From: Betaproteobacteria bacterium
GTDB lineage: Bacteria; Pseudomonadota; Gammaproteobacteria; Burkholderiales; Eutrophovitaceae
Length of the DNA: 44,981 nucleotides
NCBI GenBank assembly: GCA_020346185.1
Contig: CP070775.1
Coordinates: 2,210,626-2,255,606, forward strand
Direction of reading: 5' to 3'
In this document: piece after piece, positions 6,631 through 44,981 of the stretch
Numbering within the stretch: position 1 is the stretch's first letter
Layout: every line of letters starts with the position of its first letter
The notes under the pieces: generated by a model
Database searches by the model: none
The model's input: only the letters and a program-made list of their open reading frames with translations
Told to the model about the DNA's origin: nothing
Program-made: the position numbers and the translations under genes

Positions 6631-9600
6631 TTAGTCGGCGTGCGCACCGGTCTCGGCTGATAGCTTCGTTGTGCCGCCAGGTCGGGTTCTGTGTGCGAGA
6701 AACTCTTGCAGCACCTTGCCGGTGTGTGAATTGCTCGTCGCAGCGACCTCTGGTGGGTTGCCTTGCACAACGACACTGCCGCCGTCGGCACCACCCTCTG
6801 GCCCAAGATCAACGATCCAGTCCGCGTTGGCCATCACGTCCAGATTGTGCTCGATCACAACTGCCGTATTATTGGCATCGACCAGGCGGTGCAGCACGTG
6901 GATCAGTTTTTCCACGTCGGCCATATGCAATCCGACCGTGGGTTCGTCGAGAACGTACAAAGTGTGAGGGAAGTCGGCTACACTGCGCGCCTGGCCGGCC
7001 GGCCGGACCTTTGCAAGCTCGGTTACCAATTTGATGCGCTGCGCCTCGCCGCCCGATAAGGTCGGACTCTGCTGTCCCAGAGTCAAATAACCAAGCCCGA
7101 CATCCTGCAGCAAACGCAACGCGTGGTGGATGTTGCTGTGAGCGGCAAAAAAACCAGTCGCTTCATCCACTGACATGGCCAGCACGTCGCCAATCGACTT
7201 GCCCTTGTATTTCACCGACAGCGTTTCCTGATCGAAGCGTGCACCGTTGCAGAACTCGCAAGTGACTTTGACGTCTGGCAAGAAGCTCATCCCGATTTTT
7301 CGTATCCCTTGACCATCACAGCCAGAACAGCGTCCTTTCGGGGTATTGAATGAAAAGCGTGCTGGGTCAAAACCACGCATGCGTGCATCCTGAGTGCCGG
7401 CAAACAGCTTTCGGATCGCGTCCCAGAAGCCGACATAGGTCGCCGGGCAGGAACGCGGCGTCTTGCCAATCGGAGTCTGGTCGACTTCGAGTACGCGTGT
7501 CACTGCTTGCCACCCGGTGAGCCCGTCGCAACCAGCCAGTTTCACAGCACCGTTGCGGGCACGCCGCTCGCTAACCAACCGCGCCGTGTTGTCGTGCAAA
7601 ACATCGCGGGCGAGCGTCGACTTGCCGCTGCCCGACACACCGGTGACGACAGTCAACCTGCCCTGCGGAAAACGAACGTTGACGCCGCGCAAATTGTGCA
7701 GTCTCGCTTTGCGCACTCGCAACGACGGAGTCGATGCCGTGACCTTCCGCCGCTGCTGTAGCGGGTGCATTAGAGGCTGGTTCAAAAAGCGGCCGGTCAC
7801 TGAATCGGCACATGCCATCAGTTGCTCAAGGCTGCCTTGGGCGATGAGCCGGCCACCGAAACGCCCTGCTCCAGGCCCGAGATCGACCAGATGATCGGCG
7901 CTGCGGATGGTGTCCTCGTCGTGTTCAACCACCAGCAAAGTGTTACCTTTACGCTCGAGCTTTCGCAGTGTATTGAGCAATAAGTGGTTGTCACGCGGAT
8001 GCAGCCCGATGGTCGGTTCATCGAGTATGTAACACACACCGCGCAGGTTCGATCCGAGTTGCGCGGCAAGACGGATGCGCTGCGCTTCGCCACCGGACAG
8101 ACTTGGCGCAGAGCGATCCAGTGTCAGGTAACCCAGGCCAACCTCGCACAAAAAGCCTAGGCGGCTTCGCAGCTCGGCGATCAGATCGCGCGCTATTTCC
8201 TGTTCCCGCCCCTGAAGCCGCACTTGCCCAAAGTGCCGTGTCAGATCTGTTACCGGCTGTGCACCATAGTCGGCAATACTGTGCCCTCCCCACTTGACCG
8301 CCAGCGCTGTCGCATTCAGTCGGCTGCCGTGACATTCAGCACAGCTTTCGTCGACTTCCAGCCAGTCAATCCATGAGTCGAGAACGTGATCCTCCGTACC
8401 ACTATTGGCTCGCTGTTCATCCCATTCGATGTCGGCGATCCTTAGCCCCGTGCCATAACAGGCTGGACACCAACCATGCCGTGAGTTGTACGAGAACAAT
8501 CGCGGGTCTGGTTCCGGGAAGCTGTTACCACAGGATAGACAGGCACGTTTGGTCGAGTACACTTTCTGCGTCATCGGCCCGCCCGACATCAACTGCTCGA
8601 GGGGCGATATTACGTGCACCACCCCTTTGCCGTGGTCCAGCGCACCGTGTAACGCTGTTCGCAGCGTGGCCTCGTCAGCAACACTGACACGCACATCGGC
8701 AACCGGCAATTCGATGTTGTGCTCGCGGAACCGATCAATGCGCGGGAAGGGCCGCGTCGGCAAGTAGTTGCCGTCAATGCGCAGGAAATCAAACCCTCTG
8801 TTGTGCGCCCAACGCGCCAGATCAGTGTAGACGCCTTTGCGATTGATAACGAGCGGTGCAAGAAGGCCAATGTGCTGCCCCCTATACTCGCGCAGAATCC
8901 GCGCCGCAATCGCCTCCTCACTTTGTGGTTCGATTGCCGCTTCGCAATCCGGGCAGTGCTGAATTCCCAGCTTCACAAATAACAAACGCAGGAAGTGATG
9001 AATTTCGGTTAGCGTTCCAACGGTACTCTTTCTGCCGCCACGGCTGGTGCGTTGTTCGATCGCCACCGTCGGCGGGATGCCGTGAATCGCATCCACATCC
9101 GGACGCGACGCCACTTGTACGAACTGCCGAGCGTAAGCATTTAGTGATTCGAGGTAACGGCGCTGCCCTTCCCCGAACACAATGTCAAAGGCAAGCGTTG
9201 ACTTGCCGCTTCCCGAGACTCCCGTAATTACAGTGAACTGTTTGCGGGGTAAGACGACATCGAGGTTCTGCAAATTATGCTCGCGCGCATTGCGAATGCG
9301 GATGAATTCGTCCAATGCCCGCGACACGCTATCCTCTTTTGCCTGCGCTGAAGACTGTGTCAGTTCTTCGAGCTGGCGTCCATACTCGACCAATGCGCGT
9401 CCGGTATGCGATGCAGCGTGTTGTTTGACCGCATCCGGTGTACCAACGCATACCACTGCACCGCCGCCCTCACCGCCTTCGGGTCCCAGGTCGATGATCC
9501 AGTCGGCTGCAGCGATGACATCGAGATTGTGCTCAATAATCACGAGCGAATGGCCAGCCTCCACCAGCTTTCGCAACGAACGAAGCAGCTTGGCGATATC

Positions 9601-12294
9601 GTCGAAATGCAGACCGGTCGTGGGTTCATCGAACAGAAACAGCGTGCCGGTCTTTGCCACACCGTGAACGCGCGCCAGATGGCCAGCCAGCTTGAGCCGT
9701 TGTGCCTCTCCACCAGAAAGCGTCGGTACCGGCTGCCCCAGGCGCAAATAATCGAGTCCAACGTCAGCCAGCGGTTGCAAGCGCCGCAGCACCTCCGTCG
9801 ATTCGGAAAAATACTTCGTGGCTTCCGACACTGTCATCTCGAGGACTTCTGCGATGTTGCGCTCGGGCCTGGTCTGCGGTGCGATCGTCACTTCCAGGAC
9901 TTCGGGCCGAAAACGCTTACCGTCACACTCGGGACAGCGCAGATACACATCCGACAGGAACTGCATTTCGACATGCTCGAAGCCGTTTCCGCCACATGCC
10001 GGGCATCGTCCGTCACCTGAATTGAAGCTGAACATGCCGGGTTTGTAGCCGCGCTCGCGTGCGATCGGCGCCCTGGAGAAAAGATTGCGTATCGCGTCAA
10101 AGGCACCGACATAGCTTGCCGGGTTGGATCGCGTGGTACGCCCGATCGGCGTCTGATCGACCATCACGACATCGGTTATCAACTCGTGTCCGCGCAACGC
10201 CGTGTGGTGACCGGGCGTGTCAGTCGGCTTGCCTTTGTGCTTGAGCATCGCTGCGTACAACACGTCCTGGACCAGCGTCGACTTGCCCGAGCCTGACACG
10301 CCGGTTACGCACACCAACCGGCTCAGCGGAATTGTCACATCGATATTCTTGAGGTTGTTCTGCGACGCGCCTTCGATCTGCAGCGTCGCTAGCGATGCAT
10401 CGACCGGCAGTCGCCCAAGATCGGCGTCGGTCTTGCACCGGCCATACAGGTAATCTCCCGTCAGCGACTCGGCGTTAACGAGTTGCGCCGGCCGGTCGAA
10501 GAACATGACGCGCCCGCCATCTTCTCCGGGCCCTGGTCCCATATCGATGAGGCGGTCGGCAGCAAACATGATCTGTGGATCGTGCTCGACAACAACCATT
10601 GAATTGCCGGCATCTCGCAGATTGCACATCACGTCGATAACGCGGCACATGTCACGCGGATGCAATCCGATCGACGGTTCGTCGAGCACGAACAGTGTCT
10701 CGGTCAACGATGTTCCCAGCGCCGTGGTGAGATTGATTCGCTGTACCTCGCCCCCGGACAAAGTGCGCGATTGCCGGTCGAGTGTGAGATAGCCGAGCCC
10801 GACTTGCTGCAGGTAGCCCAAGCGAGACCGGATCTCGCGCAGTAGCAAATCTGTCGCTTCATCCGCTGCAGCGCCGGCATTCGATTCCACTACCGCGTCG
10901 TGAAATCCGTCAAAAAACAACTTGCAACGGTCGATTGGCAACAGCATGAGATCGTGCAACGTCAAACCGGCAAGTTCTTCGAGCTGCTGCCGCGACCACC
11001 CCACGCCGGGCGGCTTGTAGCGCAACTGCGGTTCGAGTACTGCGTCAGCAGTCGCTTTCTCACCGACCCGCCACAATAATGCCTCGTGCTTGAGACGGCT
11101 ACCGTCACAGACGGTGCACGGCGTATAAGCGCGGTACTTGGACAGCAACACCCGTATGTGCATCTTGTAGGCCTTGCTTTCCAGCCAAGCGAAAAAGTGC
11201 CGCACGCCATACCAGGTGCCTGGCCAGGATTTGCGCCAGTTCACCCACCCCGAATCACCTTCCAGCACCCATTCGCGTTGTGCATCAGTCAGTTCGCGCC
11301 ACGGCTTGTCCAGCGGAATGCTGCGCTTGCCGGCGTAGTTCTCCAGATCCTCCTGGCACTCGCGAAAACTCTTGGTCTGCCATGGTTTGATGGCGCCCTC
11401 GCGCAGCGTTTTCCACTCATCCGGCACAATCAATCCGAAGTCGATGCCGATGACCCGCCCAAAGCCACGGCAGGTTTCACAAGCTCCCACCGGTGAGTTG
11501 AACGAGAACATTCCCTGACTCGGTTCGCGGTAATGGATATCGCAATCGGCACAATGAAGGTCATCGCTGAACTTCCAGGTGCGCTCCGGTTCGCCCAGAT
11601 CGTCAACTGCGTGAATCTGGATCCGACCATGCCCAACACTTAGCGCTGACTCGAGCGCTTCGATTACGCGTTCGCGCTCGGCTGAGGAGAAACGAAAGCG
11701 GTCCTGTACGACTTCGAGCGCGCTTTTGGTTTTCGCCAAAATGCGCGTATATCCTTGCGCCTCCAGAAACCGCAGCACCTCTTTCTCCGAGAAGTTCTTC
11801 GGCACATCAATTGAAAAAGTCATGACCAGACGCGGATCATGATACTGCTCAGCGCGCAGTCTCAACTCACGGTAGATCGAATCGGGTCCGTCCCGCCGCA
11901 CCGGCTGCGAGCACTGGCGGCAGTACAGATGCGACACCCTGGCAAACAACAGCTTGAGATGGTCTGCCAGTTCCGTCATGGTGCCGACTGTTGAGCGCGA
12001 TGTGCGCACCGGGTTGGTCTGATCAATGGCGATCGCCGGCGGCACTCCTTCGATGCGGTCGACCTGCGGACGGTCCATACGATCGAGAAACTGCCGCGCA
12101 TAAGGTGAGAAGGTCTCCACGTAACGCCGCTGCCCCTCGGCGTACAGCGTATCGAACACCAGCGATGACTTGCCCGAACCGGACACACCAGTCACGACCA
12201 ACAATTCACCGAGTGGCAGATCGATATCGAGGTTTTTCAGACTGTTCTGGCGCGCGCCGCGGATGCGGATCACGGTTTTGCTGTTGTTTTTCAT
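6631..12294 (-). CDS. uvrA: Giant tandem-fused UvrA excinuclease subunit (four ABC modules)
   Basis: UvrA recognises DNA lesions and loads UvrB in nucleotide excision repair. It is normally about 940 residues with two ABC ATPase modules. This ORF is 1887 residues and holds two complete units end to end, joined near residue 1000. Each of the four modules has a Walker A (GVSGSGKS), a signature LSGGE and a Walker B with DEP (FVLDEPSIGLHPRD, FLFDEPTTGLH, YILDEPTIGLHPRD, YVLDEPTVGLH). Zinc-finger CxxC pairs are present in all parts (CRQC, CADC, CETC, CTVC, CPAC, CPEC, CPDC, CAEC, CSGC, CEFC). The halves differ in sequence, so this is not an assembly duplication. A similar double UvrA is known in Chlamydia. 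No LexA box was seen upstream. The nrdJ gene follows on the same strand. Confidence 0.93.
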   Translation of the reverse strand: MKNNSKTVIRIRGARQNSLKNLDIDLPLGELLVVTGVSGSGKSSLVFDTLYAEGQRRYVETFSPYARQFLDRMDRPQVDRIEGVPPAIAIDQTNPVRTSRSTVGTMTELADHLKLLFARVSHLYCRQCSQPVRRDGPDSIYRELRLRAEQYHDPRLVMTFSIDVPKNFSEKEVLRFLEAQGYTRILAKTKSALEVVQDRFRFSSAERERVIEALESALSVGHGRIQIHAVDDLGEPERTWKFSDDLHCADCDIHYREPSQGMFSFNSPVGACETCRGFGRVIGIDFGLIVPDEWKTLREGAIKPWQTKSFRECQEDLENYAGKRSIPLDKPWRELTDAQREWVLEGDSGWVNWRKSWPGTWYGVRHFFAWLESKAYKMHIRVLLSKYRAYTPCTVCDGSRLKHEALLWRVGEKATADAVLEPQLRYKPPGVGWSRQQLEELAGLTLHDLMLLPIDRCKLFFDGFHDAVVESNAGAAADEATDLLLREIRSRLGYLQQVGLGYLTLDRQSRTLSGGEVQRINLTTALGTSLTETLFVLDEPSIGLHPRDMCRVIDVMCNLRDAGNSMVVVEHDPQIMFAADRLIDMGPGPGEDGGRVMFFDRPAQLVNAESLTGDYLYGRCKTDADLGRLPVDASLATLQIEGASQNNLKNIDVTIPLSRLVCVTGVSGSGKSTLVQDVLYAAMLKHKGKPTDTPGHHTALRGHELITDVVMVDQTPIGRTTRSNPASYVGAFDAIRNLFSRAPIARERGYKPGMFSFNSGDGRCPACGGNGFEHVEMQFLSDVYLRCPECDGKRFRPEVLEVTIAPQTRPERNIAEVLEMTVSEATKYFSESTEVLRRLQPLADVGLDYLRLGQPVPTLSGGEAQRLKLAGHLARVHGVAKTGTLFLFDEPTTGLHFDDIAKLLRSLRKLVEAGHSLVIIEHNLDVIAAADWIIDLGPEGGEGGGAVVCVGTPDAVKQHAASHTGRALVEYGRQLEELTQSSAQAKEDSVSRALDEFIRIRNAREHNLQNLDVVLPRKQFTVITGVSGSGKSTLAFDIVFGEGQRRYLESLNAYARQFVQVASRPDVDAIHGIPPTVAIEQRTSRGGRKSTVGTLTEIHHFLRLLFVKLGIQHCPDCEAAIEPQSEEAIAARILREYRGQHIGLLAPLVINRKGVYTDLARWAHNRGFDFLRIDGNYLPTRPFPRIDRFREHNIELPVADVRVSVADEATLRTALHGALDHGKGVVHVISPLEQLMSGGPMTQKVYSTKRACLSCGNSFPEPDPRLFSYNSRHGWCPACYGTGLRIADIEWDEQRANSGTEDHVLDSWIDWLEVDESCAECHGSRLNATALAVKWGGHSIADYGAQPVTDLTRHFGQVRLQGREQEIARDLIAELRSRLGFLCEVGLGYLTLDRSAPSLSGGEAQRIRLAAQLGSNLRGVCYILDEPTIGLHPRDNHLLLNTLRKLERKGNTLLVVEHDEDTIRSADHLVDLGPGAGRFGGRLIAQGSLEQLMACADSVTGRFLNQPLMHPLQQRRKVTASTPSLRVRKARLHNLRGVNVRFPQGRLTVVTGVSGSGKSTLARDVLHDNTARLVSERRARNGAVKLAGCDGLTGWQAVTRVLEVDQTPIGKTPRSCPATYVGFWDAIRKLFAGTQDARMRGFDPARFSFNTPKGRCSGCDGQGIRKIGMSFLPDVKVTCEFCNGARFDQETLSVKYKGKSIGDVLAMSVDEATGFFAAHSNIHHALRLLQDVGLGYLTLGQQSPTLSGGEAQRIKLVTELAKVRPAGQARSVADFPHTLYVLDEPTVGLHMADVEKLIHVLHRLVDANNTAVVIEHNLDVMANADWIVDLGPEGGADGGSVVVQGNPPEVAATSNSHTGKVLQEFLAHRTRPGGTTKLSAETGAHAD

Positions 12295-40858: not shown

Positions 40859-42396
40859 GGCGTTGCCTGCTCCCTCAAAAGTCTGCGTAACTGCGTCTTC
40901 AACACTTTCCCATAATTATTCTTCGGAAGGCTGTCCACGAAGCGATACTGGCGCGGGCGCTTGAATCGCGCAATGCGCTGCACACAAAAAGCATCCAGCT
41001 CGTTTTCGCTCACCTGGTTTGCCGGTTGCATGACAACAAACGCCACTACCTCCTCGCCCCATTCGGCATGCGTCCGACCCACTACCGATACTTCAGCCAC
41101 CGCCGGGTGATGCAGCAAGACCTCTTCGACCTCACGAGGATAGATATTTGAACCGCCACTGATGATCAGGTCCTTGGAGCGGTCACGCAGCGTCAGGAAA
41201 CCATCGTCATCGAACGAACCAACGTCGCCGGTATGCAACCAGCCGTTGCGCCATGTCTGCGCAGTCGCCTGCGCGTTACGCCAGTAGCCTTGCGCGACCA
41301 CATCACCGCGCACCAGAATTTCACCGATTTGGTTTGCCGCCAGCGGCTGGTCATTATCGTCGGCGACGATCACTTCGACCGAAGACTGGGCAACGCCAAC
41401 CGATGCGAGACGCTCCAGGTAACGCGGGTGCCTAGTGTCATTAATGCATTCACGCGACAGGGCAGTAATCGTCATCGGTGCCTCGCCCTGGCCGTAGATC
41501 TGCACAAAACGCGGACCCAGCACGCGCAACGCCTCCCGGATGTCAACCACATACATTGGCCCGCCGCCATAAACGACAGTCTTGAGCCCAGTCAGATCCG
41601 GTGCATGCTCTCGCGCGTGCGACACCAGCCGCTGTACCGTCGTCGGCGCAAGGAACATCGTCACTCCCGCCCATCGTGAACACAGCGAAAAAACTTCGGC
41701 CGGATCGAAATGTCCGCTTTCGGGTATCACCTGATTGGCCGCCTTGAGCGCGTGCGGCATGTCGTAGATGCCCGACCCATGCGACATCGGCGCGGCATGT
41801 ACGATGCAATCATGCGTGCTGATCTGGTCGACATCGGTGAAGTAACTTTGTGTAGCACACATCAGATTCCGGTGGCTGATCATTACGCCTTTCGGCTGTC
41901 CGGTTGTGCCACTGGTATAGAACAGCCAGGCGACATCGTCGGGCGCGCTGGGATACATTTCCAGTGATGGTTCGGCCGATTGCAGCGTCTGATACTCCGC
42001 CGATCCGACCTCGATGACCCGCTCCAGATCGGCAAGCTCGTCGATCAGCGGTGCAACTGTCTCGGTCAGGTCCGGGGTGACGAAGCACACCCGCGCGCCG
42101 GAATCCGTCAGCATGTAGGCGAACTCCCGCGCGTGCAGTTTCGCGTTCATCGGCACCGCAGCGAGCCCGGCGTACCACGCTGCGTAGCGCACCTCCAGAT
42201 ACTGGGGACAGTTGGTCATCGCCAGCGCGACACAGTCGCCCGGAACCAAACCTAGTTGTTCGCGAAATGCCGCCGCCATCGCGGCAACCCTGCGCATCAG
42301 CCGCGCGTAGTCTGCCCACACGCTTTCACCCTGGGACACTGCAGGGTTGTCTGGAAAAACGCTCGCGGCGCGAGCGAGAAAGTGAGTGATATTCAT
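40855..42396 (-). CDS. AMP-forming acyl-CoA synthetase/ligase
   Basis: A 513-residue adenylate-forming enzyme that activates a carboxylic acid with ATP and joins it to CoA. The P-loop is YTSGTTGQPKG (160-170), followed by SHRN; other motifs are IYGQGEAPMTITALS (A5) and GWLHTGDVGSFDDDGFLTLRD (A7), RSKDLIISGGSNIYPREVEE (A8), and the catalytic lysine in LPKNNYGKVLK (A10). All are intact. The substrate is a fatty or aromatic acid, not deducible. It starts 73 bases after the DUF504 gene and overlaps the following small membrane gene, so it probably belongs to the same leftward transcript as the Prim-Pol cluster. Confidence 0.91.
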   Translation of the reverse strand: MNITHFLARAASVFPDNPAVSQGESVWADYARLMRRVAAMAAAFREQLGLVPGDCVALAMTNCPQYLEVRYAAWYAGLAAVPMNAKLHAREFAYMLTDSGARVCFVTPDLTETVAPLIDELADLERVIEVGSAEYQTLQSAEPSLEMYPSAPDDVAWLFYTSGTTGQPKGVMISHRNLMCATQSYFTDVDQISTHDCIVHAAPMSHGSGIYDMPHALKAANQVIPESGHFDPAEVFSLCSRWAGVTMFLAPTTVQRLVSHAREHAPDLTGLKTVVYGGGPMYVVDIREALRVLGPRFVQIYGQGEAPMTITALSRECINDTRHPRYLERLASVGVAQSSVEVIVADDNDQPLAANQIGEILVRGDVVAQGYWRNAQATAQTWRNGWLHTGDVGSFDDDGFLTLRDRSKDLIISGGSNIYPREVEEVLLHHPAVAEVSVVGRTHAEWGEEVVAFVVMQPANQVSENELDAFCVQRIARFKRPRQYRFVDSLPKNNYGKVLKTQLRRLLREQATP

Positions 42397-42469
42397 TGGC
42401 GAAAATCCGGGCTAGCACCTTATCTTATAACGGCCGGCACGCAGTGCCTCCAACTACGCCGCATGCAGC

Positions 42470-42736
42470 CTATGAACCTTGCGGTTTGTCACGGTGCCAG
42501 ATCAGCTCATCGTCTCGCCACACTTCACGAACGCGGTGAAAAGGGATGCTATGTAAGCTTCCGTCACCCTCAATAGCCTCGAATCCAAAGTGTTCGCCTT
42601 CTGCAAAGCGAATTCGTTCAAACGGCACCTTGACGATCCGATCGGCAACACGATCGTAATAACCGATTTCGAATTTCCCGCGCCCGAACGCCTCATCCCA
42701 CCGTATTCGGTTGAGCAGATCCTGTATTGGCATCAT
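42470..42736 (-). CDS. DUF504 family protein
   Basis: An 88-residue protein matching DUF504, common in archaea and scattered in bacteria. MPIQDLLNRIRWDEAFGRGK, FEIGYYDRVADRIVKVPFER (the GYYDR motif), and DGSLHSIPFHRVREVWRDDE plus LIWHR are the usual conserved points. The function is unknown, but DUF504 is often found in one gene or in one neighbourhood with RNA-processing enzymes. Its start overlaps the stop of rtcA by four bases (ATGA at 42736-42733), so translation is coupled and the two proteins are likely made together. Confidence 0.87.
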   Translation of the reverse strand: MMPIQDLLNRIRWDEAFGRGKFEIGYYDRVADRIVKVPFERIRFAEGEHFGFEAIEGDGSLHSIPFHRVREVWRDDELIWHRDKPQGS

Positions 42737-43773
42737 TGCGAGTGCACCGTCACCGTCACAAGTTTGCCTTCGCTCTTTACCTCAAAGCCCACTGGCAGAA
42801 ATTGCTCAATCAGCCACATCGCGGTTCGCGCATGGCTAGAAAGCCGGTGCGTCCTGAAAAGCGAATCGCCTCCCGCAAGTGCCAGATACACGAGTAACTG
42901 ATCCGATGCGTGCAGGTCGAGCGTGACCCCAGCGGTCAAATCGGTAGCCAGACTGCGGCCGACCGCATCGCCAAGCGTCTCGGCCCGAATACCCCGTTCA
43001 GCGACTCGCCCTGCGCCCAGTACCGTGTGCTTGGTGCGGGCCCAGGCCACTACTGCACCGCCGGGACCGACAGCCGCTTCGGGACCGAACGACAGCATCT
43101 CAACCGCCACCGGCCGCTTGGCGACCGGTTCCAGCCTCGCTGTCACTGCATCACGCATGCGCTCAGCGATATGCAGCGGCAAATTCGACACGTGCACCCT
43201 CGTGTGGAGTGACTGCAGCGGTCGGCTGTCTGCCAGTTGCAGCGGCTGAAGCGGTGCAGGCGTGACGGAAACCGCGACTTCACCACCACCACGTGGGTAA
43301 TATCCGCGCCGCGAGACCTCGAGGCTGACCGACGCTCCCATGCGCCCGATCAGCGGTAACATGACTTCACGCAGGTAATCGACCGGCGGCGACCAACGCA
43401 CGTCGGTACCGCCGGTTACCACAACATGCGCGCGTTCGCGTCCTGCAATCAGCGCCGGCAACACCGCTTGCAGCACCAGTGTGATACTGCCGGCGGTGCC
43501 GACATCAAAACGAAACTCGCCGCCCCGCAACGCCCCCGGAGCGAACCCGATTTGCTGCGAGCGCAACTCCAGCCCGGAAACACCGGCATCACACAACGTT
43601 GCAACAGCGCGCACCGCGGTGAGATGCTGCGCCGCTAATCCCGGTTTGTCACGCCGTGCGCGAATGTTCTCAACGCGAATTCTTGTGCCCGTCAGTGCTG
43701 CCAGCGCGACGGCCGTGCGCACTAATTGTCCACCACCTTCGCCATAAGCGCCGTCGATTTGCAGCGGTGTCAT
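42733..43773 (-). CDS. rtcA: RNA 3'-terminal phosphate cyclase RtcA
   Basis: A 346-residue enzyme that turns an RNA 3'-phosphate into a 2',3'-cyclic phosphate through a covalent histidine-AMP intermediate. IDGAYGEGGGQLVRTAVALA opens the first domain, GTAGSITLVLQAVLPAL follows, then RRGYYPRGGGEVAVSVTP. The nucleophile His314 is in RLSSHARTAMWLIEQFLP. All typical points are intact. The usual partner RtcB ligase and the RtcR regulator are absent. The gene begins 45 bases after the Prim-Pol gene and overlaps DUF504. Confidence 0.93.
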   Translation of the reverse strand: MTPLQIDGAYGEGGGQLVRTAVALAALTGTRIRVENIRARRDKPGLAAQHLTAVRAVATLCDAGVSGLELRSQQIGFAPGALRGGEFRFDVGTAGSITLVLQAVLPALIAGRERAHVVVTGGTDVRWSPPVDYLREVMLPLIGRMGASVSLEVSRRGYYPRGGGEVAVSVTPAPLQPLQLADSRPLQSLHTRVHVSNLPLHIAERMRDAVTARLEPVAKRPVAVEMLSFGPEAAVGPGGAVVAWARTKHTVLGAGRVAERGIRAETLGDAVGRSLATDLTAGVTLDLHASDQLLVYLALAGGDSLFRTHRLSSHARTAMWLIEQFLPVGFEVKSEGKLVTVTVHSQ

Positions 43774-43818
43774 CAGAGCATGCGCAAAGCTTTGCGCAAT
43801 CCAAGATCGAACGGAAAA

Positions 43819-44649
43819 TCAGGCAGTCTCAGCATTCTCGCGCAATGCCTCGCGTTCGTGAAGCCGGAAAATGCTCTCCACCACTCGCGCGACTTCGTGG
43901 TCGGACAGCGGTGGGCGGCACCGCACCCGATTCCAGGCCAGTAACATTTCGAGCACAACCTGGGCATCGACACCACGATGAAACAAATGGCCCGCAAGAG
44001 AGGCGATAGTCGAGTTGCGCTGGCCTTCGGCAACACCTTCACTCACCAGGCTGCGCCAGTGTGTCGATGAATGACCGCCACGCGCTTTGTCACCACGCAC
44101 CAGTTGGAGCAACCAGGCCGGCATCGGTGCCAGCGCTGACTCACCGGGCGCGTGCCCGCGCTTCCATCTGTAACGCCTGCCGTTGCGATGCACCGAGGGA
44201 GGCGCGACGACGCAACCACCATCGCCGCGCAAATCGATGCCCGGCGTCAGTCCGACAAGATTGCGCACCACGCCGGCGGGGTGCGAAAAGTAGAAATGGC
44301 GGCCACCGCTGCCGGTTACCGCCTCGACCGTTGCCGGCAAGGGTTTGTGCTCACGCTCCAAGCGCTTCAGGCTTTCCTTGCCGCCATGCACGATGTCGAT
44401 GTCAAGAACGACCAGATCCGATACGGCACCGGTGACGATGGCAACATTGGGCTTCTTGCGCGTCTCAAACCACTGGCGGACTTCGTCCCCATCAGCAAGA
44501 CGTTGCTGGAATTCCAGCCACCGAACCAGCGGCCTTTTGCCACGCCCTTCAATCGGAATCACCGACCAGCCGCGTGCGAGATATGCCAGCGCTGTTGCCA
44601 GGCAGTCGTTTCCCCGCAATTCCACGGCCGGGGAACGTTTCACCGCCAT
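43819..44649 (-). CDS. Archaeo-eukaryotic primase/polymerase (Prim-Pol) with PriCT-like C-terminus
   Basis: A 276-residue AEP-superfamily protein. The metal-binding motif is VVLDIDIVHGG with Asp83 and Asp85; the second motif is GSGGRHFYFSHP with His118 (sGGxHxyf); the third is DLRGDGGCVVAPPSVH (139-154). They define the bifunctional primase/polymerase fold that makes and extends primers. The final 70 residues (VAEGQRNSTIASLAGHLFHR, and WNRVRCRPPLSDHEVARVVE) match the PriCT helical domain. Such enzymes usually occur in plasmids, phages and integrated elements next to a helicase; no helicase is seen here. The start at 44649 overlaps the stop of the 77-aa gene by one base (TAATG). Confidence 0.88.
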   Translation of the reverse strand: MAVKRSPAVELRGNDCLATALAYLARGWSVIPIEGRGKRPLVRWLEFQQRLADGDEVRQWFETRKKPNVAIVTGAVSDLVVLDIDIVHGGKESLKRLEREHKPLPATVEAVTGSGGRHFYFSHPAGVVRNLVGLTPGIDLRGDGGCVVAPPSVHRNGRRYRWKRGHAPGESALAPMPAWLLQLVRGDKARGGHSSTHWRSLVSEGVAEGQRNSTIASLAGHLFHRGVDAQVVLEMLLAWNRVRCRPPLSDHEVARVVESIFRLHEREALRENAETA

Positions 44650-44882
44650 TAGCCGGCCCGCTTCGAATGCGTAAAGGCTGCAAGGTCCCACTCACCGCTT
44701 GATTCATCATGTCGAAGGACATACAGCGAACCGTCGTCCGTCCGGCACCTGAAGTAGCGCTCGGTCGGCCCTATCCAACGGTCGACGATATCGGTTACCT
44801 CAAGCCTGCGTTCACCAAGCCAGAACGAGCGCGGTTCCTGTTCGCCCCGATAACCCGCGTAACACTCAACTTTGATGCTCAT
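44649..44882 (-). CDS. 77-aa beta-rich conserved protein heading the Prim-Pol operon
   Basis: A small basic-aromatic protein, MSIKVECYAGYRGEQEPRSF followed by WLGERRLEVTDIVDRWIGPT, then RYFRCRTDDGSLYVLRHDES and a WDLAAF end. The strand-turn-strand pattern suggests a small beta-sheet. I recall similar short proteins in many proteobacteria (starting with VECYAGYRGEE, then RFxLGxR), none with a known role. It is the first gene of the leftward run and overlaps the Prim-Pol gene by one base, so it is translated with it. A 16-bp tandem repeat begins 39 bases upstream. Confidence 0.76.
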   Translation of the reverse strand: MSIKVECYAGYRGEQEPRSFWLGERRLEVTDIVDRWIGPTERYFRCRTDDGSLYVLRHDESSGEWDLAAFTHSKRAG

Positions 44883-44920
44883 GGCTTGATCATGTTAGTC
44901 CTGACCGACTTTCAACGCCA

Positions 44921-44981
44921 TTACCTATCAACACGATTACCTATCAACACGATTACCTATCAACACGATTACCTATCAACA
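44921..44981. repeat. 16-bp tandem repeat running off the window
   Basis: The unit TTACCTATCAACACGA is repeated exactly from 44921: copies at 44921-44936, 44937-44952, 44953-44968 and 13 bases of a fourth to the end. No spacers, so it is not a CRISPR array. It is just upstream of the 77-aa/Prim-Pol/RtcA/DUF504 run. The total copy number is unknown because the window ends inside it. Confidence 0.95.

Follow-up and report, generated by a model that had tools for sequence, protein, structure and literature searches.

A primase-polymerase gene clustered with archaeal-like RtcA and MJ1316 domain genes in a betaproteobacterium, and its possible place in RNA repair

Introduction

What is a primase-polymerase (Prim-Pol) doing in a tight bacterial gene cluster with a putative RNA 3'-terminal phosphate cyclase? 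The question is raised by four leftward genes at the right end of a 44,981-nucleotide stretch (hereafter the window) of the Betaproteobacteria bacterium assembly GCA_020346185.1 (contig CP070775.1, positions 2,210,626 to 2,255,606). The genes encode a 77-residue protein (p77), a small Prim-Pol of the archaeo-eukaryotic primase (AEP) kind, the cyclase RtcA and a protein with an MJ1316 domain, which we take to be the same as DUF504. A first-pass annotation of the DNA had proposed that the four might act on the same RNA or DNA end as a repair system.

We favour, with a probability of roughly 0.6, the reading in which the cluster supplies the end-healing arm of an archaeal-type Rtc module for RNA repair, together with a polymerase, and in which the ligase arm is encoded elsewhere in the genome. 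This draws on gene identities, conserved overlaps, purifying selection, a distinct RtcA clade, co-occurrence across genomes and a repeated neighbourhood, all computed here. That the parts act on one substrate we infer from co-occurrence, and the roles given below to the Prim-Pol and p77 are in every case suggestions. RtcA, RtcB, archease and MJ1316 are already known in RNA repair. For a Prim-Pol partner of Rtc proteins, and for the split into two Rtc sets described below, no description was found in open literature whose coverage excludes the 2016 RNA-repair survey.

Results and discussion

Layout and conservation of the cluster

Open reading frame (ORF) calls confirm the layout first described, with one-base and four-base overlaps and a 45-base gap (Table 1). 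The p77 stop shares one base with the Prim-Pol start (TAATG), and it is from this ATG that the Prim-Pol residues are counted; the 45 bases lie between Prim-Pol and RtcA, and the RtcA and MJ1316 frames overlap by four bases within ATGATG. The cluster is found beside a 100-N gap in the assembly, which comprises a single scaffold of 3.6 Mb and is 90% complete. The exact order p77, Prim-Pol, RtcA, MJ1316 and then an acyl-CoA-ligase-type gene is present in the window genome, in CP070643.1 (genome G003, for which locus L032 stands here), a member of the same genus whose four proteins are 85-92% identical to those of the window, and in JAOTYY010000320.1 (L031). The arrangement is therefore not confined to a single genome, as the first-pass annotation had allowed it might be: the two siblings share both the order and the overlaps, the one-base overlap reading TGATG in L031 and TAATG otherwise. 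Over the window and these two siblings the ratio of non-synonymous to synonymous substitution rates (dN/dS) is around 0.05-0.24 for the four genes, with changes mostly at codon position 3, and all four evolve under purifying selection. A scan of positions 42300-44981 for sigma-70-like promoters gave 0 sites against a shuffled mean of 0.8 and is uninformative, and no Rfam family reaches its gathering score in the window.

Table 1. Features of the cluster and its upstream flank, in window coordinates
Feature	Position	Strand	Basis
p77, 77-aa protein	44649-44882	minus	ORF call, no named family
Small Prim-Pol (AEP) with PriCT_1, 276 aa	43819-44649	minus	PF09250, PF08708
Putative RtcA, 346 aa, archaeal-like clade ('type B')	42733-43773	minus	PF01137, TIGR03399
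MJ1316 (DUF504) domain protein, 88 aa	42470-42736	minus	PF04457
16-bp tandem repeat, 4.4 copies	44912-44981		TRF (L002 2538-2607)

An archaeal-like RtcA and a predicted reader of cyclic ends

The RtcA protein matches RTC (PF01137, 2.4e-83) and RTC_insert (PF05189) in Pfam. It passes the cut-offs of TIGR03399 (397.7 bits, cut-off 250.05) and NF003246 (359.6, cut-off 352), and scores below that of NF003247 (205.4, cut-off 333). Its closest solved structure is 4o89 (E 3e-71), presumably from Pyrococcus horikoshii, followed by 1qmh (6e-58), which we take to be the Escherichia coli RtcA. Its SSHARTAM segment is matched in solved RtcAs by SCHLLTNI and TNHLKTNI, and the conserved histidine in this column, presumably the active-site residue, is present as first reported. 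On this sequence evidence we regard the window protein as a putative RNA 3'-terminal phosphate cyclase belonging to an archaeal-like clade and not to the E. coli kind.

The MJ1316 protein is recognised by PF04457 (6.5e-26, 91.3 bits, cut-off 26.3) and falls below the stricter NF003272 cut-off (33 against 92). It is a predicted reader of RNA 2',3'-cyclic ends; PMC6514570 attributes recognition of such ends to the MJ1316 domain, with credit going in part to a 2016 survey.

Across the order, RtcA (PF01137) was found in 46 of 399 genomes, 45 of them above the cut-off. Identity to the window protein is bimodal, being at least 50% in 12 of the 399 genomes (type B) and 31-44% in the remainder (type A); the label is partly circular, since it is set by identity to the window RtcA itself. 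Among the type B cases G182, at 50%, is partial, and so is G389, which matches in two pieces (66% and 45%). G036 was counted as type A from fragments only (53-55% over 42-76 residues), one of which adjoins an E. coli-type RtcB that is 30% identical to that of the window genome. A tree of 42 RtcA rows separates 12 type B rows (10 order genomes, L031 and L034) from 30 type A rows on a branch with support of 100/100. It holds 40 of the 45 above-cut-off order genomes, along with L031 and L034; outside it are G182 and G389 (short), G036, G170 and G209, the last two with RtcAs 38% and 32% identical to the window's. The L034 protein is, like the window's, closest to 4o89, and the one type A sequence tested is closest to 1qmh.

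Archease and RtcB elsewhere in the genome

The first-pass annotation listed RtcB as missing. At the cluster this holds, there being no RtcB within it; for the genome as a whole it is wrong, because archease and RtcB are encoded at C1:1054508-1056341, away from the cluster. The ORFs of this pair overlap (L050; archease 138 bits, RtcB 564 bits), and the RtcB, at C1:1055049, is the only match in the genome. Among the RtcBs measured, those linked to archease are 60-91% identical to it and those beside a type A RtcA about 27-32%.

Co-occurrence was assessed in 50 chosen genomes, made up of the Prim-Pol genomes (see below), the type B genomes and 26 hand-picked controls (12 type A and 14 with neither). 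MJ1316 is present in 10 of 12 type B genomes, in 1 of 12 type A genomes (G145, matched in two pieces) and in 0 of 14 with neither. Archease follows the same division (11/12, 1/12, again G145, and 1/14). RtcB, sought in 42 of the 50 genomes, was found in 11/12, 12/12 and 2/14, respectively, so that it is archease and not RtcB that discriminates. In a sample of 200 order genomes that were not hand-picked, archease occurs in 39, among them 7 of 7 type B genomes (p=6.7e-6) and 6 of 7 Prim-Pol genomes (p=2.4e-4). It is likewise present in 9 of 9 genomes with MJ1316 and in 11 of about 80 others searched for both (p=2.6e-7); the MJ1316 search covered 100 genomes, of which 11 seem to fall outside the 200-genome archease sample, and G002 stands outside the comparison though archease adjoins RtcB there. 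Archease, RtcB and MJ1316 lie side by side in G035. The order holds two Rtc systems, an E. coli-type RtcBA operon and an archaeal-type set of a distinct RtcA, MJ1316 and archease-RtcB, which in the genomes covered here are well, though not absolutely, separated.

Genes for HPF (ribosome hibernation) and CBS-domain proteins recur both beside archease-RtcB and beside MJ1316 (L050 6514-9342; L133 1501-2611; L019 8468-9689), which hints at a tie between repair and ribosome dormancy.

The Prim-Pol as a proposed, frequent partner

The Prim-Pol contains the PF09250 domain (2.5e-44, 152 bits, cut-off 22.8) followed by PriCT_1 (PF08708, 5.9e-16, 58.3 bits, cut-off 21.1). Its catalytic motifs, noted at first pass, are indeed there: D83, D85, H118 and D139, which we take to be the catalytic acidic and histidine residues, are invariant in the nine sequences aligned. 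Profile searches place ORF904 of pRN1 as the nearest solved relative (E 4.7e-7). Foldseek also ranks ORF904 first (E 3.6e-5); the model is of low confidence (mean predicted local distance difference test, pLDDT, of 64) and its matches are therefore support for the family only.

A PF09250 protein resembling ORF904 might be the replication primase of a plasmid or phage, left or carried by a mobile element that landed beside RtcA. The family is found in 481 of 50,697 phage and 43 of 72,556 plasmid records, all at less than 60% identity; the distant Prim-Pols of L013 and L111 are each followed by a gene that reads as a helicase type, and an IS3 transposase gene lies about 1 kb from a Rhizobium relative. 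Against this, the window-type Prim-Pols group apart from those of L013 and L111 (support 92/98), and the window gene itself evolves under purifying selection and keeps its neighbours in the siblings. In keeping with the first-pass annotation, no helicase partner was seen: Pfam gives no helicase domain in the protein, and none was recognised by eye in the neighbouring ORFs. More widely, no helicase, integrase or replication gene was recognised by eye beside the Prim-Pol in the window, beyond the gap or in the sibling locus L014, from ORF lists of which not every neighbour was scanned for families. We rejected a mobile-element replication primase as the main explanation because no helicase or integrase was recognised beside the Prim-Pol, and consider it highly improbable. 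Plasmids yielded 44 RtcA records, every one below 60% identity.

A role in phage defence, also suggested at first pass, gained no support and was set aside: PADLOC gave 0 matches for the four proteins at E<=1, MJ1316 had no match on plasmids, and eight stretches with the p77 pattern in viral contigs included 0 confirmed relatives.

Prim-Pol was found in 14 of 399 order genomes (E<=1e-20) and in 5 of 398 phylum genomes (E<=1e-30), the window's being included in each count. The Prim-Pol and RtcA counts come from two draws of 399 order genomes, which were taken as the same set. Ten of the 14 were kept as orthologues, among them the imperfect G060 (internal stop) and G369 (partial), while G058, G070, G142 and G186 were left out (31-38% identity, in larger frames or at contig ends). 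Type B RtcA is present in 6 of the 10 orthologue genomes against 6 of 389 others (p=3.4e-8). The association persists with all 14 Prim-Pol genomes (6/14 against 6/385, p=4.6e-7) and when G389 is omitted (6/10 against 5/389). For RtcA of any type the figures are 7 of 10 orthologue genomes (p=1.4e-5) or, with all 14, 7/14 against 38/385 (p=2.8e-4). The orthologue genomes also carry MJ1316 (6/10), archease (9/10) and RtcB (9/10). In the four phylum genomes outside the order, MJ1316 was found in 0/4 and archease in 1/4 (G583).

The association extends to gene neighbourhood. RtcA, MJ1316, RtcB or archease lies within 5 kb in 8 of 24 Prim-Pol loci or, with siblings counted once, in 6 of 22, for which a crude uniform-placement model, run with 16 and with 22 Prim-Pol loci, gives a chance of about 1e-7 to 5e-7. 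In G362 some 6 kb hold, in order, Prim-Pol, BCAM0308, a CapA-like gene (read by eye), RtcA, MJ1316 and an MscS-like gene, with p77 on the opposite strand; in L034 Prim-Pol and RtcA are followed by p77 on the opposite strand and then by a ribonuclease-Z-like metallo-hydrolase gene. The MJ1316 start falls inside the end of the Prim-Pol frame in L035, about 160 bases separate Prim-Pol from archease in G106, and the partial Prim-Pol of G369 is about 90 bases from RtcB. We read the Prim-Pol as a frequent, non-obligate partner of the archaeal-type Rtc module.

Some details of these loci deserve mention in their own right. The MJ1316/Prim-Pol junction of L035 (6720-6980) may be a long overlap, or else a fusion broken by a frameshift. 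In L068 two genes stand between Prim-Pol and RtcA: a BCAM0308-like gene (8362-8874), 61% identical to that of L035, which matches NF040826, and a CapA-like gene (8911-9900, read by eye), which meets the RtcA start and is a candidate end phosphatase.

p77

At E<=1, neither Pfam nor NCBIfam matches p77, and PHROG gives only a marginal match (E 0.14). Its AlphaFold2 model is all-beta with six strands (mean pLDDT 88.7). Profile searches for relatives of solved structure gave a best E of 0.22, and neither Foldseek nor VIA pointed to a clear fold, the best VIA Z-score of 6.0 being tied with unrelated beta proteins; this lack of a match is not evidence of a new fold. Its dN/dS over the window and siblings is about 0.1-0.24. 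Matches were found in 8 of 300 order genomes, including the window's; two Sinorhizobium replicons also gave matches, with 34% identity. Elsewhere p77 neighbours an archease-RtcB remnant (L044) or a ribonuclease-Z-like gene (L034, L042), and in L040, L041, L043 and L045 no RNA link was recognised among its neighbours. We regard it as a loose accessory and the weakest member of the set.

The remnant in L044 (7436-7777), which adjoins p77, joins the N-terminus of archease to the final 40 positions of the RtcB profile and is apparently the product of a deletion. The ribonuclease-Z-like metallo-hydrolase occurs near type B RtcA or p77 in four loci (L034 8378-9403, L042 5672-6688, L115 5292-6281, L116 8635-9615) and might also belong to the set; its placement in subfamily PRK02126 was tested for L034 only. 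G003 has a second p77 copy (L039 5564-5758), which may be an assembly split and not a true paralogue, since it ends at a 100-N gap. In the window, the 16-bp tandem repeat lies directly upstream of p77 and runs into the gap, and the siblings have about one copy each.

Weighing the association

Several observations limit, or weigh against, treating the cluster as part of one module. The exact four-gene order is seen only in three close relatives; the recurrence elsewhere that the first-pass annotation asked for is exact in these and looser in distant loci, where the set is scattered, partial or interrupted. G001 and G002, of the same genus (89% and 71% complete), have no match to MJ1316, Prim-Pol or RtcA; each has an RtcB, adjoined by archease in G002. 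G005, a 99% complete genome of the same family, has the Prim-Pol and no match to RtcA, MJ1316, archease or RtcB. Six of the 12 type B genomes lack a Prim-Pol orthologue, and 16 of the 24 Prim-Pol loci have none of the four genes within 5 kb, some of the 16 being distant, partial or cut by contig ends. The Rhizobium relative sits with genes for a phosphoribosyltransferase (PRTase), YbhB and chaperones, and the Prim-Pol of L033 is flanked by genes read as transporters. On the Prim-Pol tree the 'linked' label changes four times, a number as low being reached in 36 of 500 shuffles, so that there is no clear clustering. The co-occurrence counts ignore phylogeny, and collapsing the genomes to families, with 50 assumed, leaves the Prim-Pol/type B test at a weaker p=0.0045. 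G060, one of the Prim-Pol genomes, and G145 combine a type A RtcA with archease and MJ1316, and the split between the two Rtc sets is therefore not absolute. Finally, p77 is missing from most genomes of the set: just 3/10 of those with Prim-Pol and 4/12 of type B carry it, as do 0/12 of type A and 1/14 with neither.

Some of these facts would suit a different explanation, in which Prim-Pol, p77 and Rtc genes merely collect in the stress islands of proteobacteria (with HPF, CBS, PRTase, BCAM0308, Hsp20 and glycogen genes) and share no pathway. The frequency of unlinked Prim-Pols agrees with this, as do Prim-Pol neighbours such as HPF and CBS (L070), PRTase (L012, L069, L073) and BCAM0308 (L035, L068), and the HPF and CBS genes that flank archease-RtcB in the window genome. 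It leaves unexplained the one-base and four-base overlaps kept in siblings, the Prim-Pol/MJ1316 overlap of L035, and the co-occurrence of Prim-Pol and type B RtcA in genomes that hold them at a distance from each other or on separate contigs (G106, G116, G308). We regard such hitch-hiking as unlikely.

A proposed mechanism

That Prim-Pol, RtcA and MJ1316 recur together outside the window genome makes a shared nucleic-acid-end pathway a fair inference. The proposal of the first-pass annotation is in this respect borne out by the tight cluster and its recurrence; its notion of a stand-alone set is not, since the cluster looks like one part of an archaeal-type Rtc set with its ligase arm elsewhere. 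According to PMC4499129, RtcA adenylylates the end of an RNA 3'-phosphate on the way to a 2',3'-cyclic phosphate, and can also adenylylate RNA and DNA 5'-phosphates.

In the RNA-repair module that we favour, a nuclease or damage would leave an RNA 3'-phosphate, which RtcA would adenylylate and close to a 2',3'-cyclic phosphate. MJ1316 would recognise the cyclic end, and the archease-charged RtcB encoded elsewhere in the genome would seal it to a 5'-OH. The Prim-Pol would probably carry out templated re-extension or filling of the end, either ahead of the sealing step or following it, and p77 might serve as a small adaptor. The more specific idea that the Prim-Pol is a working part of the Rtc pathway, with a healed, capped or sealed end (RNA or RtcB-capped DNA) priming templated repair synthesis, is put forward tentatively, as one we think rather less probable than its converse.

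The polymerase could also be taken to indicate that the ends mended are of DNA, or are RNA-DNA ends: RtcB would make DNA3'pp5'G for the Prim-Pol to extend, with RtcA and MJ1316 handling 3'-phosphate or cyclic ends. PMC4499129 describes the addition of a GMP cap to DNA 3'-phosphates by RtcB and the use of this cap as a primer by polymerases of families A, B, C, X and Y; this reading would account for the repeated presence of a DNA-type polymerase next to Rtc genes. A part for RtcB in DNA repair has been raised as a possibility (PMC7790460). Set against this, the passage of PMC4499129 on the primed polymerases does not name AEP enzymes, MJ1316 points to cyclic ends of RNA (PMC6514570), and half of the type B genomes, as already noted, have no Prim-Pol orthologue. 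DNA 3'-end rescue strikes us as quite unlikely.

The repeated arrival of the archaeal-type set with a Prim-Pol hints at an unsuspected polymerase step in RNA-end repair. If the link is functional, it would provide a job for stand-alone bacterial Prim-Pols and a polymerase for Rtc repair, and the real substrates of RtcA and RtcB would become testable with a defined protein set. If the Prim-Pol does use such ends, the outcome would be a repair route based on 3'-phosphates and served by a polymerase dedicated to it.

Comparison with known systems

The closest known system is the archaeal-type archease-RtcB ligation of archaea and some bacteria, with which the window genome shares an RtcA near 4o89, an archease-RtcB pair and a co-occurring MJ1316. 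The difference is that RtcA and MJ1316 are here clustered with Prim-Pol and p77, apart from archease-RtcB. The RtcR-regulated RtcBA operon of E. coli and Salmonella has the same RtcA and RtcB families and presumably the same chemistry, but the window RtcA is not in the type A clade and has no RtcB next to it, and the RtcB of the genome shows only the low identity to type A-linked RtcBs given above. ORF904 of pRN1 and other primases with PF09250 and PriCT_1 resemble the window Prim-Pol in domains, catalytic residues and nearest solved structure; unlike them, it is a chromosomal protein of just 276 residues with no helicase domain and no replication module seen. Finally, the polymerase domain of LigD and other repair AEPs place an AEP polymerase beside end-processing and ligase activities. 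The likeness here is by analogy only: the AEP family is a different one, and RtcB would here take the place of an ATP-dependent DNA ligase as the partner.

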